A stretch of DNA of 64,000 bases from positions 37,721 through 101,720 of the IMG/VR virus record IMGVR_UViG_3300031576_000009, one strand, 5' to 3'. Each line of letters begins with the position of its first letter. Position 1 is the first letter of the stretch. The translations under genes and the position numbers were made by a program. The stretch is from a virus. The notes below the pieces were generated by a model, which was not told the origin of the DNA, searched no databases, and was given only the letters and a program-made list of their open reading frames with translations. Below, one piece after another: positions 5,376 to 42,310 of this stretch.

Positions 5376-5734
5376 CAGATTCTCGGGAGGATGAAGATTT
5401 CGATGCGCGTGTCTCCATTGGGAAACGATGACTCCAGACCGGACGGATCGTTAGCGTAGAACACGGCGAGGTATTTGCCCGGATCGTCCGTGTTGGTGAC
5501 CGCCCAGGCATAGACGAGTTGACCGCTGGTTCTCGGTAAGATGAAAGCGGCCGTCACCAGGGAGAGCGTCGACACCGTCTGGTCCTCTTTCCGCATGCTG
5601 AAGCGCGGATTCGTCCAGTCGGTGAAATTGAAGGGCAGCCCCGTGCTCTCCTTGATCACGGTCGCCACCAACACCGGGAGCCGATTGCCGGCGGTCAGAA
5701 AGGCCCGAGGAGTTCGTCCGCCGCTGATGGTCAT
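5375..5734 (-). CDS. baseplate upper protein-like (BppU/Ig-like) protein
   Basis: 119 residues. The layout LPVLVATVIKES - FNFTDW - RFSMRKED - VYAWAVTNTDDPGKYLAVF - IFIL matches the small Ig-like domain annotated in phages as BppU N-terminal/baseplate-associated. Likely a virion attachment or baseplate component. Assignment by pattern, not search. Confidence 0.6.
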   Translation of the reverse strand: MTISGGRTPRAFLTAGNRLPVLVATVIKESTGLPFNFTDWTNPRFSMRKEDQTVSTLSLVTAAFILPRTSGQLVYAWAVTNTDDPGKYLAVFYANDPSGLESSFPNGDTRIEIFILPRI

Positions 5735-6819
5735 GCCGCGAGGATTTCCATCGGTTTGTCATGGTACATCACGCTCGGCACGTCGTCGTACCAGATCACG
5801 TCCCCCAACACGTCTTGCCAGCTCACGTTCACGTGGACTTGGTCGTTCGGGATCGTACCGATCAGCATGGCAATTATATCAGCCAAACCGACGTTCTCAA
5901 CCGCCTGGATGGTGAGGACCGGTACGAATATCTTCAGGTTGTTCAGCAGGTCCTGTACCGTCATCGTCTCGGCCTTGTTGATCAGCAGCGGATTCAGGAA
6001 GAGCCGGGTGATCGCATCTTGTACCGAAACATTTTCCTGTAACCGGACGACGAGCGGGTTCACCAGGAGCTTGGTCACCACATCGGTTGGCGTCACGCTC
6101 TCCTGCAGCGCGATGCGCAGGGGATCGATGAAGAGCTTCGTCACCACATCGGCGAAGCTGAGCGTGTCGCTGACCCGGATCACGAGGCCGATCGAGATGA
6201 TCAGGAAGTCGGCGACCGTGACCGACTCCGCTCGATTGATAATGAGTGGGTTGATGAGGACGCGGACGACCGCATCCTGGAACACGGGCGAATCGGAGAC
6301 CGCGATCAGGAGCGGGCTCACGAAGAGCCTCGACACCACATCCGTCAGCGTCGCGGTATCGGAGACCCGAATGCGCAGCGGCTCGACGAAGAGCTTCAGG
6401 ACCGCATCAGCGATCGCCGGAGTCTCATTCGCCCGCACGAGGAGCGGGTTGATGATCAGCTTGACGACGGCGTCCTGGATACCCTGGTTCTCGATCGCCT
6501 GGAGCAGGAGCGGGCTCTCGAAGATGCGCACCAGGACATCTGTGATCGTCGCGGTATCGTTCGAGCGAATGATGAGTGGGGTGATGACCTCCTTCACCAG
6601 CTGATCGGTGAGGGTGGGATTCTCCATGGCCTGGACGATCAACGGATTGATCACCACCTTCACCACCATGTCGCTCGTCGTGATGGTGTCGTTGGTGCTG
6701 ATCCGCAGCGGCGAAGCGAAGAGCTTCACCAGCTGGTCCACAGCCGTCGCGTTCTCCGCGGCGTTGACTATCAACGCCGTGATGAGCTGCTGCGGAACGA
6801 AGAAGAGGAACCAGCTCAT
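5731..6819 (-). CDS. 22-residue tandem-repeat protein
   Basis: 362 residues. From about residue 12 to 330 it is built of some 14 consecutive repeats of about 22 residues with the frame PLxIxxxExxTxxDxVxKLxx. Examples start PLIIRSNDTATITDVL and PLRIRVSDTATLTDVV. Conserved positions are the PL pair, an acidic residue after a hydrophobic stretch, Thr/Ser, an invariant Asp and a following Val/Ile-Val-Lys. The C-terminal 50 residues are non-repetitive (DVIWYDDVPS). It lies between a BppU-like gene and secreted proteins, so a rod or fibre role is plausible. No signal peptide seen. Confidence 0.8.
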   Translation of the reverse strand: MSWFLFFVPQQLITALIVNAAENATAVDQLVKLFASPLRISTNDTITTSDMVVKVVINPLIVQAMENPTLTDQLVKEVITPLIIRSNDTATITDVLVRIFESPLLLQAIENQGIQDAVVKLIINPLLVRANETPAIADAVLKLFVEPLRIRVSDTATLTDVVSRLFVSPLLIAVSDSPVFQDAVVRVLINPLIINRAESVTVADFLIISIGLVIRVSDTLSFADVVTKLFIDPLRIALQESVTPTDVVTKLLVNPLVVRLQENVSVQDAITRLFLNPLLINKAETMTVQDLLNNLKIFVPVLTIQAVENVGLADIIAMLIGTIPNDQVHVNVSWQDVLGDVIWYDDVPSVMYHDKPMEILAA

Positions 6820-38185: not shown

Positions 38186-38318
38186 CGTCCTCTTCCTTCA
38201 CGCCCATGATCGTCGGGTTCGGGCCACCCTTCCCTCGCCACCGGCAGTCCGCGCAGTAGAGCAGACACCACTTGATCTCCCGGCGACACCCTGGACACAG
38301 ATGATCGTACCGGCCCAT
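38175..38318 (-). CDS. small zinc-ribbon protein
   Basis: 47 residues from MGRYDHLCPGCRR, start at the TAATG junction with the SSB gene. CPGC and CADC give one zinc ribbon; the tail is acidic (KEEDDEV). Overlaps the RecA-like start by 11 bases. Function unknown. Confidence 0.7.
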   Translation of the reverse strand: MGRYDHLCPGCRREIKWCLLYCADCRWRGKGGPNPTIMGVKEEDDEV

Positions 38319-39211
38319 TAGCCCCGTAGCCTCCGGCGGCGCCGCTCGCTCGCACCGACCTTTGACCGCTGCAGCCGGCGCTCCCGCCACACCATCTTGC
38401 AGCGACGGCGCACCGGGCACTCGATGCAAATCGGAAGCCCACGCACACCGTACTTCTCGCGACGGTAGGCACGTGGCTTCTTGTAGGACTTGCCGAAGCA
38501 CGGGTACTTCTCCGAGCGCGAGCTGCGCTCGGTGTCCTCGTCGTCGCGGCGAGTCGCCCCACTGCTCGTTGGCGTCATCCCGAGCGCCGCGCGCATCTCC
38601 TGCGCGTTCGGCAGCGAGATGAACTTGCGGAGGTTCTTCACCTTGCGGAGCCAACGCTTGTTCTGGATGCGGGTCGCGGTGTGCTTCACCTTCGCATCGT
38701 ATAGCGGTGGCGCCTTGCCGCGATCGGTCACGATGATCACGACGTTCTTGCCACGCCGCGGATGGGTGAAGTCGCCACAGTCGGGATCGGCCCAGGCCGT
38801 CAGCATGTCGGTCATGACCTTGTCGCTGTACGTCCGCCACACCTGCACGCCGTGCTCGGGATGATTCAGGTCGACGAGGTTCATGAAGTACACGCTCTTC
38901 GCCTGTATCCGCTCGCTCATCGACACATCTTCCACGTCTTCGCTCGATGCGAGCTCCTCGGCCTTCTCACAGCCGGGGCACGGCTTGTTGGTCAGCTCCA
39001 GGCACGTGTGCACGGTCCCACGGCCCGTCTGCCCACCCCACGGGAAGTAGTGTTGCTTGCCCTCGAAGTAGAACGTCTCGTTGTCGCCCCACGGAAGCAT
39101 CCGGATGGGGTTCTCACCAGCCACGGGCTTCCAGAACCGCTTCCTTTTCTCGTTGAGCTCCTTCAACTTCTTGCGAATGGTATCGAGCCTGTTGCCGGTC
39201 GAAGAAATCAT
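38318..39211 (-). CDS. gp32-like ssDNA-binding protein
   Basis: 297 residues. RFWKPVAGENPIRMLPWG is the start of the phage gp32-type OB-core; CPGCEKAEEL supplies part of a Cys-based zinc site expected in gp32-like SSBs; basic and acidic segments follow. C-terminus is basic (ERRRRRLRG), unlike the usual acidic tail. Located in the replication block next to recA-like gene. Confidence 0.7.
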   Translation of the reverse strand: MISSTGNRLDTIRKKLKELNEKRKRFWKPVAGENPIRMLPWGDNETFYFEGKQHYFPWGGQTGRGTVHTCLELTNKPCPGCEKAEELASSEDVEDVSMSERIQAKSVYFMNLVDLNHPEHGVQVWRTYSDKVMTDMLTAWADPDCGDFTHPRRGKNVVIIVTDRGKAPPLYDAKVKHTATRIQNKRWLRKVKNLRKFISLPNAQEMRAALGMTPTSSGATRRDDEDTERSSRSEKYPCFGKSYKKPRAYRREKYGVRGLPICIECPVRRRCKMVWRERRLQRSKVGASERRRRRLRG

Positions 39212-40701
39212 GCCGCCTCCTTCACGTCCTCTGGATAGACCACCTGTGCTGATCGCTCCGCCTCACCCCAACGGTCAGCGGTACCGATCTCCATCGCGAA
39301 GCGGTAGTTGTCGAGCTGAGGAACTGGACGCGTCATCTCCTCAGACATGATCTCGCGCACAGCGCGACGCTCGGCGCGAGGATGCTCCACGATGATGTTG
39401 TCGTACACGAGATTCACCGGCCACGCCTTCATCCTGTACTTCTCGAAGCGCGCACAGATGCGGTTCATGGACCGGAACGTCAACTCCGCTGCTGCGTTCT
39501 GTGGAAAGAAGTCTCGGGCCTGCCGACGCAGGTGATTCAGCTGCGCCTCGTCGTGGTAGTCCGTCACCACGAAGCGACGCTTGCGGCCGAACGGGCTCGT
39601 GATCACCTTCTCCTGGATCGCGAGTTCCGCGATCCCGTCGAGGAAGCCACAGGTGAGCGGGAACTGCCCGGCGAAGCCCTCCATCGCTCCGGCGATCAGA
39701 TCGACGGGCGCTCCGGTGAACGCCGCGATGCCCTCGGCTGAGCCGCCGTACAGGAACCCACCGAAGACGATGCCCTTCGAGAGCGTACGGATGGTCTTGT
39801 TCGGCTTCTCGTTACGCGGGACCTTGAAAACGGTCCAGGCGACCTCGTTGTGGAAGTCACGGCGTTCCCTGAAGATCAGCAGCATCTTCTCGTCGCCCGC
39901 GATCACCGCGATCGCCACGAGTTCCGCCTGCTTCACGTCCGCACTCGTCAGCTCACAGCCTGGTGCCGCGATGAACATATCGCGCAGGCTGAAGACCTCG
40001 TCGTCCTTCAGCTCCAGGAACGGGTAGTCGTTGTGGTCCTTGTCGCGCGGCATGGTCGCGAGTGGCGGCTCCTTCGAGCTGACACGACCGCTGACCTGCG
40101 CGCCCACCTGAAAGAGCGTGTGCACACGGTGAGTCTTGTCGATCCACTTCTCCAGGCCGGGGGCGTAGTTGCTCTGCAGCTTCGAGGCACGCGCCCAGTT
40201 GATGCAGTGGCGCAGGATGGGGTGCTGGTACTTCTCGAACAGCTTCTCCAGGATTTTGCGATCGGTGGTGTACTGGCCGGTAGTCGTGAGGGGAACCTTG
40301 GGATCATCGGTGGGGATGCCCACGACATCGAAGATGACGCGGGCCTTCTGCGCAGGCGCGTTGAGGTTGATTCGCTCTCCGGCGATCTCTTCGATCTTCG
40401 ACTGAATCCGACGCGTGACGGTTTCGAGTCGATCCGCGATCTCGAACATGCGAGTCTTGTCGACGCGCATGCCCATGAGACCGGAGCGGAGCAGGTTGCT
40501 GCAGAGGGGACGCGAGGCGGTGTGGAAGTACTCCTTCATGCCCTGTTCCTTCAGTCGGCGCTTGAGCACCTTCCACACGCGAAACGCCGCATCCGCGTCG
40601 GTCGCAGCGTACTCGTGGAGGATTTCGGGCGGGATCAGGGCTGCATCCCGCGCGCCGAGTAGGCCACGAGATTTCATACGTGGCTCCAAAGCTTCCTGCA
40701 C
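39208..40701 (-). CDS. family A DNA polymerase, C-terminal fragment (split gene)
   Basis: 497 residues. It begins with the Exo III part of the 3'-5' exonuclease (YAATDADAAF at 31-40) and lacks motifs Exo I and II, which lie in the upstream ORF at 41180-42310. Polymerase motif A ADVKQAELVA (Asp255), motif B RTLSKGIVFGGFLYG (303-319; one residue longer than the usual KTINFGVLYG) and motif C VYDNIIVEH (Asp434; Tyr-Asp-Asn in place of the usual His-Asp-Glu). Both palm aspartates are present. Start overlaps the HNH gene by 28 bases. Confidence 0.85.
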   Translation of the reverse strand: MQEALEPRMKSRGLLGARDAALIPPEILHEYAATDADAAFRVWKVLKRRLKEQGMKEYFHTASRPLCSNLLRSGLMGMRVDKTRMFEIADRLETVTRRIQSKIEEIAGERINLNAPAQKARVIFDVVGIPTDDPKVPLTTTGQYTTDRKILEKLFEKYQHPILRHCINWARASKLQSNYAPGLEKWIDKTHRVHTLFQVGAQVSGRVSSKEPPLATMPRDKDHNDYPFLELKDDEVFSLRDMFIAAPGCELTSADVKQAELVAIAVIAGDEKMLLIFRERRDFHNEVAWTVFKVPRNEKPNKTIRTLSKGIVFGGFLYGGSAEGIAAFTGAPVDLIAGAMEGFAGQFPLTCGFLDGIAELAIQEKVITSPFGRKRRFVVTDYHDEAQLNHLRRQARDFFPQNAAAELTFRSMNRICARFEKYRMKAWPVNLVYDNIIVEHPRAERRAVREIMSEEMTRPVPQLDNYRFAMEIGTADRWGEAERSAQVVYPEDVKEAA

Positions 40702-41180
40702 ACGATACGACGGCAGGTTGATGTGCTGACGCCAAAGCGCTTGGCAAGGCTTCCAGTTGATACGCCCTCTCTCGCCAGCACCCGTAGCTGCCGCACCTTA
40801 CGAGCGCTCAATCGTGCCGCTGCATTCCGCTCACCGCGCGGGGCGCGATGAGGGTGCAATCTGAACCCATGACGATCGCCACGAGCAGTTCTTCCCCTCT
40901 CATCACGATCACGCACATTGTCTAGATTACTGCCTTCGCGAAGATGAAGCGGTTGAACACACGGTGGATTGTCGCACGAGTGCAGCAGCTGCCTCATCGG
41001 CCACGTCCCATACGTCAAGTACCAGGCGACGTGCGTTGCACGTCGCATCTTCCCATCATAGCGAACCTGACCATAACCATCTCGATCCATCGACCTTACC
41101 CAAAGCCAACAGCTGTCAGGCGAGTCAGGCTGACGTACGCCTGCCCAAAACTCCTTGGGACCATTCGGACGTTGAGGCAT
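40674..41180 (-). CDS. HNH endonuclease interrupting the polymerase
   Basis: 168 residues from MPQRPNGPKEFWAG. LHSCDNPPCVQPLHLREGSN is the HNH_3-type core (His, Asn, His-like). A C-terminal helical segment GVSTGSLAKRFGVSTSTCRR looks like a DNA-binding HTH. The ORF starts at a TAATG with the upstream polymerase ORF and ends inside the next start, leaving no room for an intron core. A free-standing homing endonuclease is the best reading. Confidence 0.8.
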   Translation of the reverse strand: MPQRPNGPKEFWAGVRQPDSPDSCWLWVRSMDRDGYGQVRYDGKMRRATHVAWYLTYGTWPMRQLLHSCDNPPCVQPLHLREGSNLDNVRDRDERGRTARGDRHGFRLHPHRAPRGERNAAARLSARKVRQLRVLAREGVSTGSLAKRFGVSTSTCRRIVCRKLWSHV

Positions 41181-42310
41181 TATGCCGCCTCCTTCCGCTT
41201 CTTCTGCTTCCTGAGCTTCGAGAGCTTCTTGGCCATGCGTGTTTTGTAGTTGCCAAGATCGGTGAAGAGGAACGCAAGCGTCTCCAGGTCCTTGAAGCTG
41301 TTCTCGTCGATCAGGTTCATCATGACCAGGAGATCACGGAAGTTGATCTTGTACACGTCGATGTCGATCCGCGAGAGGAACCGTAGGTCGAAAGGTGCGT
41401 TCTGGATCACCCAGATCGTCTTGGGGTCCTCGAACTTGCGCTTCAGTCGACTGCGGATCACCTCCCACTGGTGCGCGGTCCAGACCTCGACGCGCTTAAA
41501 GCCGTAACGTGGTAGCACCCACGCCTCGTACTCCTTCCACGAGAAAGACATGCACTGGATGTTGGCCCGCTGGTAGTCAAGCGCGGTGCCCACGATTCGC
41601 TGGAGCTTCGTACGGAAGGCACTCGTCTCCGAGTCGAACGCGATCACCTTCTGACGATCGAGCTCATCGAGGAACACCAGGGCCTCTCCGAACGTCTGAC
41701 AGATGCGGTACACGACGGGGTGTCGTGGTGTTGCCCGGCCTCCTGTCGCGACGCGGTACGCGCGTTCCAGATCGCGTACGACGACACCCCGGTAGCCTTC
41801 GTTGCCACGGAGTAGGTACGCTGGATGGAAGGTCGGCAGCACCTTCGGCGCCGTTGGGAGGAGGTCGATTGGTTCATGGAGCTCTCCACGCGCCTTGGTG
41901 ATACCTGACTTCCCGACGGTTGAGCGAAGGGCCACGTCCCCGAGCGCCACCAATAACTTCGGAGCGACGCGCCGAATCTCGACATTCAGCCGCTGACGGC
42001 AACAGGCGATCGCCTGGTCGATGTCCTTCCCCTGCTTCTTCATGTCGATGGGGATTTGGCACTTCAACGCGTTGGCGATGTACACCTCGTCTCGGTCGAT
42101 CTTCGGCTCCGTCTCGTCGAGCAGTCCGTTCAAGTACTGCCCGGCTCGTCCGTAGAAGGGGCGACCCGTTCTCACCTCCTCCCAGCTCGGGGCTTCACCG
42201 ACGAACATGATTTTCGCGTCGGGTGGCCCTTCACTCATGACCATCGGGGCACGATAGAGAGGACACTGCTCACAGATGGCAACTTTCTCTTCTCGCAGTA
42301 CGCCGCCCAT
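41180..42310 (-). CDS. uracil-DNA glycosylase fused to N-terminal polymerase exonuclease (split gene)
   Basis: 376 residues. Residues 1-190: family-4-type uracil-DNA glycosylase features (CEQC 13-16, VGEAPSW 37-43, GRPFYGRAGQYL 49-60, Cys84, Cys103-104, HPAYLLRGN 162-170), consistent with a 4Fe-4S cluster. Residues about 218-376: start of a DnaQ/PolA 3'-5' exonuclease with FDSETS (226-231) and NAPFDLRFL (304-312). It stops before Exo III, which is in 39208-40701. UDG-PolA fusions are known in some phages (for example SPO1). Confidence 0.85.
   Translation of the reverse strand: MGGVLREEKVAICEQCPLYRAPMVMSEGPPDAKIMFVGEAPSWEEVRTGRPFYGRAGQYLNGLLDETEPKIDRDEVYIANALKCQIPIDMKKQGKDIDQAIACCRQRLNVEIRRVAPKLLVALGDVALRSTVGKSGITKARGELHEPIDLLPTAPKVLPTFHPAYLLRGNEGYRGVVVRDLERAYRVATGGRATPRHPVVYRICQTFGEALVFLDELDRQKVIAFDSETSAFRTKLQRIVGTALDYQRANIQCMSFSWKEYEAWVLPRYGFKRVEVWTAHQWEVIRSRLKRKFEDPKTIWVIQNAPFDLRFLSRIDIDVYKINFRDLLVMMNLIDENSFKDLETLAFLFTDLGNYKTRMAKKLSKLRKQKKRKEAA

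Follow-up and report, generated by a model that had tools for sequence, protein, structure and literature searches.

Organisation of the locus

The window (the whole 64,000-nucleotide stretch analysed here, part of a 101,720-base IMG/VR virus record) harbours three tightly coupled minus-strand genes, encoding in order a uracil-DNA glycosylase (UDG) domain with the Exo I and Exo II motifs, an HNH endonuclease-family protein, and the Exo III motif with a family A polymerase (PolA) domain. The features are as follows.

41180-42310, minus strand: ORF1, UDG domain (family-4-type) and N-terminal part of the 3'-5' exonuclease (Exo I, Exo II), 376 aa
41798-42235, minus strand: UDG domain, residues 26-171
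41627-41638, minus strand: Exo I, FDSE/DSET region, with the D and E catalytic carboxylates
41387-41401, minus strand: Exo II, NAPFD
41188-41194, minus strand: Shine-Dalgarno AAGGAGG of the HNH gene, inside the ORF1 tail (KRKEAA)
41178-41182, minus strand: TAATG stop/start junction of ORF1 and the HNH gene
40674-41180, minus strand: HNH endonuclease-family gene, 168 aa
40684-40688, minus strand: Shine-Dalgarno-like TGGAG of the polymerase gene, moderate pairing (-5.6 kcal/mol)
40674-40677, minus strand: ATGA overlap of the HNH stop (TGA) and the polymerase start (ATG)
39208-40677, minus strand: ORF3, C-terminal part of the exonuclease (Exo III) and family A polymerase domain, 489 aa from ATG; alternative GTG start at 40701
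40597-40611, minus strand: Exo III, YAATD
39922-39939, minus strand: palm motif A, DVKQAE
39397-39408, minus strand: palm motif C, VYDN; catalytic Asp kept, His replaced by Tyr

The ORFs and motifs lie on the minus strand where a preliminary description of this DNA had placed them and the Pfam domains agree, with matches of ORF1 to UDG (4e-26), which bears out the glycosylase fusion noted there, and to DNA_pol_A_exo1 (7e-9), and of ORF3 to DNA_pol_A (2e-62). Cys 13, 16, 84 and 104 of the UDG domain are conserved with relatives and are probably Fe-S ligands. A predicted model of ORF1 alone is confident for the UDG and less certain for the exonuclease, in keeping with a domain that is only partly present. 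ORF3 holds palm motifs A, B and C, and the Tyr-for-His replacement in motif C has one other case (L032) among ~148 sequences. No exonuclease carboxylate is lost in the window, and the Tyr of Exo III and the palm residues that are essential are likewise retained. ORF3 is the sole PolA detected in the 101.7-kb record, in which no PolB or PolC was found; should the record be incomplete, a further polymerase may be encoded beyond these 101.7 kb.

The Shine-Dalgarno site of the HNH gene (pairing -11.7 kcal/mol) ranks in the top 1.2% of ATG/GTG codons and is among the strongest in the window. Of the two junctions described earlier, TAATG is confirmed at 41182-41178, while the 28-base overlap requires the GTG at 40701, for which there is no Shine-Dalgarno pairing (+0.5 kcal/mol). 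With its ATGA overlap and Shine-Dalgarno site, the ATG at 40677 is therefore the more likely start of ORF3. TAATG also joins the primase gene to ORF1, and an ATGA overlap links ORF3 to the gene that follows; thus, the whole stretch is a coupled operon. The gene that follows the polymerase (38318-39211) occupies the position of a single-stranded-DNA-binding protein, and has a Cys-rich stretch and no Pfam match.

Continuity of the exonuclease across the break

ORF1 and ORF3 match successive segments of a single PHROG profile (476-788 and 800-1233 of phrog_17, respectively), which identifies them as two parts of one protein. In a MAFFT alignment with intact phage UDG-Exo-Pol proteins, ORF1 joined to ORF3 restores one exonuclease, as the preliminary description had anticipated, and the residues D-E, D and Y/D are all present, divided over the two ORFs. 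The stretch that runs from the conserved helix behind Exo II up to Exo III (hereafter, the loop) measures 25-73 residues (median 40) in 51 intact, one-frame relatives. The corresponding total in the window, counted by hand at the same column as ORF1 tail plus ORF3 head, is 57 residues and falls within this range; hence, no conserved piece has been lost. In an AlphaFold2 model of one intact relative (L017; pLDDT 90.2, pTM 0.82), with the Klenow fragment as its best PDB match, the break maps to the loop that connects helix 351-359 to the Exo III helix 372-399. ORF1 followed by ORF3 gives the UDG, 3'-5' exonuclease and PolA order of the SPO1/PaBG type, but not the single polypeptide of that type.

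The HNH gene

The preliminary description had also recognised an HNH ORF between the two polymerase parts, and this holds. The protein matches HNH_3 (5e-5), above the curated cut-off in a genome search, and its gene is the sole HNH_3 gene found in the record. It belongs to a type widespread in phages (1035 phage records, best ~35% identity), and those of its close phage matches that were examined are free-standing genes. It has a helix-turn-helix-like C-terminal end. The protein keeps the Cys/His framework and the first His, while the usual Asn position is occupied by Gln (CVQP); one relative has Arg there. The GC3 of the gene is 0.55 versus 0.73-0.86 in its neighbours, and its codon score is lower than that of every one of 3000 native segments of equal length drawn at random, while ORF1 and ORF3 are native-looking in codon usage. 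By its composition, the HNH gene is foreign in origin.

The same cut in other uncultured viruses

Single-protein IMG/VR scans with ORF3, RecA, the helicase and ORF1 yielded no close relatives, megablast of 24 kb against phages gave no match, and the best relative shares ~30% identity. Two IMG/VR profile scans provided ~160 loci; a first alignment of six sequences was too diverse as a search query. The exonuclease lies in one frame at 121 of these loci. Given these one-frame relatives and three long frames with matching domain order, the ORF1/ORF3 split is far beyond chance.

Exo II and Exo III lie on separate ORFs at 18 other uncultured viral loci (the window and L082 uncounted). L082 was set aside, as its overlapping frames look like a frameshift error; at L031, the break adjoins N's. 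Seventeen of the 18 share one junction type, and those placed on the tree form one strongly supported clade; the remaining locus, L161, is separate from it. Two members of the clade (L160 and L172) are two-piece, while the other 15 (L046, L053, L054, L058, L062, L065-L068, L073, L083, L085, L088, L089 and L091), several of which are near-copies, are three-piece with a second cut before the palm. The pieces comprise UDG with Exo I/II (~345 aa), Exo III with a linker (~164 aa) and palm/fingers (~365 aa). The clade junction is usually a bare TAATG devoid of HNH, with unrelated or opposite-strand genes filling the gap at some loci; most of the 18 loci have no endonuclease in the gap. The middle protein has two weak matches among 50,697 phage records, and for the three-piece clade as a whole the matches in cultured phage records are no more than weak.

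Comparisons between clade members gave Nei-Gojobori dN/dS values of 0.04-0.14 in every one of the three pieces, where estimable, so a polymerase cut at this point is kept by selection in that clade. The Exo III Tyr is replaced by Gly there, with the Asp kept; the clade is therefore no proof that a split exonuclease proofreads. The preliminary description noted no earlier account of the cut point. A limited literature search found no description of it, nor of any family A polymerase in three parts or cut inside the exonuclease domain, but the 18 IMG/VR loci share the cut with the window.

Other arrangements were encountered in the same scans. At L033 (5983-9492), UDG-Exo and Pol are separated after Exo III, with two small nucleotide-metabolism-like genes between them. 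At L059 (5977-9134), the polymerase is split just before palm motif A and a MazG-like ORF is among the gap genes. L019 (5926-9645) has a one-frame polymerase of 1240 aa with a ~390-aa insert before palm motif A, possibly an intein.

Origin of the split and alternative explanations

The explanation that we consider probable is that a free-standing, homing-type HNH gene interrupts the UDG-Exo-PolA gene and that ORF1 and ORF3 assemble in trans into one enzyme. The HNH gene would have entered the length-variable loop that joins the Exo II and Exo III helices, bringing or meeting translation signals and leaving three separate, translationally coupled genes. One mRNA would then yield ORF1 and ORF3 next to each other, and the two chains would combine, with no covalent link, into a single UDG-Exo-Pol enzyme. 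The break was probably tolerated because the loop is variable in length, and the HNH protein probably cuts uninterrupted polymerase genes of related phages, thus spreading its own gene. We infer assembly, proofreading activity, HNH cleavage and homing; for the assembly of the window's two chains, the grounds would be precedent together with selection on the equivalent split elsewhere. Two-chain reassembly by the genes-in-pieces route is the most economical reading. Counting against it are the distance of the nearest relative, a possible further polymerase beyond the record, the Gln at the HNH Asn position, the Tyr of motif C and, for proofreading by a split exonuclease, the Exo III Gly of the large split clade.

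A different order of events, with the same trans function, is less likely but deserves serious consideration, namely that the polymerase was already split at the loop and the HNH gene later invaded a ready-made boundary. The bare TAATG split of another clade and the other unrelated genes in the gap at L172, L062, L065, L067, L085 and L091 are consistent with this order, and the same ambiguity has been stated for gene 43 of phages 25/44RR (PMC2988022). The best tree, however, separates the window from the 17-locus split clade; on the 46-row tree the split label requires three changes, with a minimum of two imposed by well-supported branches. Furthermore, the window's cut lies ~20-30 residues downstream of the clade's ORF1 end. 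The tree evidence is tempered by the window's long branch, which makes its place unsure, and by the AU test, in which a union of the window and the large split clade was neither supported nor rejected (p 0.24), as an earlier split would allow. For these two reasons, an independent origin of the window's split is not claimed as shown.

Some family A polymerases are devoid of proofreading, and the cut parts the catalytic carboxylates. Thus, the exonuclease might be dead or dispensable, with ORF3 acting as a non-proofreading polymerase and ORF1 as a stand-alone UDG, and the loss of the Exo III Tyr in the large split clade fits such decay. We regard this as unlikely, since the exonuclease residues of the window are intact on both sides of the break, ORF1 and ORF3 are full length with native codon usage, and both exonuclease pieces are under strong purifying selection in the other clade.

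Placement of the HNH gene within an unrecognised or reduced kind of self-splicing intron, with the polymerase made as one protein, is very improbable. Homologous polymerase genes of SPO1 and Listeria P70/LP-114 do have HNH genes in annotated interruptions, and splicing of a gene interrupted by a homing endonuclease gene is reported in ICP1 (PMC10448857). Against this, the HNH frame of the window occupies the whole gap, with junction spacings of 0 and -4 bases, and the HNH domain and tail span nearly the whole ORF, with ~150 bases left outside. This geometry agrees with the preliminary description, which saw no room for a group I intron core. No intron RNA was matched by Rfam in the window scan or in a permissive scan of the locus up to E 10, and the ribosome-binding sites and ATGA/TAATG junctions would serve no purpose in an intron. 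Sub-threshold Rfam matches to Guanidine-III and ncS011 lie inside coding sequence and were taken as chance. Intein halves are likewise not in evidence: there is no Pfam intein match, and the short ORF1 tail (~21 residues past the last conserved helix, Lys-rich) and short ORF3 N-terminus leave no room for them. An assembly or sequencing artefact is scarcely credible, for even though the window comes from a metagenomic contig and a second copy was not found, a 507-base gene that is complete, in correct phase and coupled at its junctions does not resemble an indel error or random chimera, and equivalent splits occur in other contigs.

Comparison with known split genes

The closest precedents for interruption by an endonuclease gene with reassembly in trans come from Aeromonas phage Aeh1 and the T4-like phages 25/44RR. 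In Aeh1, the free-standing homing endonuclease gene mobE splits nrdA into NrdA-a and NrdA-b, and the split enzyme works by experiment (PMC2988022). As there, an endonuclease gene in the window divides an essential replication-related enzyme into two polypeptides, and an endonuclease-family ORF lies between complementary gene parts with no intron or intein carrier; the Aeh1 enzyme is a ribonucleotide reductase, whereas in the window it is a polymerase whose function as a split enzyme we infer. The gp43A-gp43B pair of phages 25/44RR, in which the break holds an endonuclease gene or an untranslated spacer, co-purifies and is active (PMC2988022), and thus provides a phage replicative polymerase made as two proteins. 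It is a family B polymerase with a SEG-type endonuclease, while the window has a family A polymerase that is fused to a UDG and broken within the exonuclease domain.

Among relatives of the same family and three-domain order, SPO1 gp31, PaBG gp205 and the phiLo polymerase (PDB 9qhs) are each one polypeptide where the window has two; the PaBG-type UDG-Exo-Pol is intact (PMC7412058). SPO1 is also HNH-interrupted, but by what is annotated as a spliced intron in the polymerase domain, and the annotated interruptions of SPO1 and Listeria relatives are joined or intron-like, unlike that of the window. Relative to such HNH-bearing group I introns (SPO1, Listeria P70), the conserved intron RNA core was not found in the window. 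In OM43 phages MEP401/MEP402, two ORFs that flank a small one encode a family A polymerase (PMC10580990); there, the cut is in the polymerase domain, the exonuclease is whole and the insert has no known homology, while the window is cut in the exonuclease. PolB of Pseudomonas phage MIJ3 lies in two ORFs with an HNH gene between and a split intein (PMC6892783); that polymerase is of family B and its intein halves would rejoin the chains, whereas none were seen in the window. The 17-locus clade (L160/L172/L046-L091) shares the UDG-Exo-Pol cut between Exo II and Exo III, yet differs in lacking HNH, in the second cut at 15 of 17 loci and in the Exo III Gly, where the window has HNH and the Exo III Tyr.

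Significance of the cut site

The recurrence of the cut is the more interesting part of the finding. Tentatively, the Exo II-Exo III loop may be a site at which phage family A polymerases have been split repeatedly, such that the proofreading site is built from two polypeptides in several lineages and the whole replicase from three in one clade. Homing endonuclease insertion would be the agent, caught in the act in the window, and loss of the endonuclease would leave the bare TAATG. If the two chains of the window do reassemble as proposed, genes in pieces would no longer be limited to ribonucleotide reductase and a family B polymerase but would include a UDG-fused family A replicase. The cut would pass through a catalytic site, with the Exo I/II carboxylates on one chain and Exo III on the other, and proofreading would depend on subunit assembly. 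The loop would also be a natural split site for a two-part polymerase, and the related three-piece clade offers many natural replicates.

Two minor observations concern the window itself. The 3' ends of the UDG-Exo and Pol genes (39208-39219 and 41180-41191) have GAGGCGGCATRA in common, and both end in KEAA*. GAGGCGGCATRA is absent elsewhere in the window and holds the Shine-Dalgarno site of the next gene; its occurrence at both gene ends is perhaps convergent or copied. Far from this locus, a long minus-strand ORF (5731-6819) is built from many degenerate repeats (NPLxxxxxENxTxxDxVxK...).
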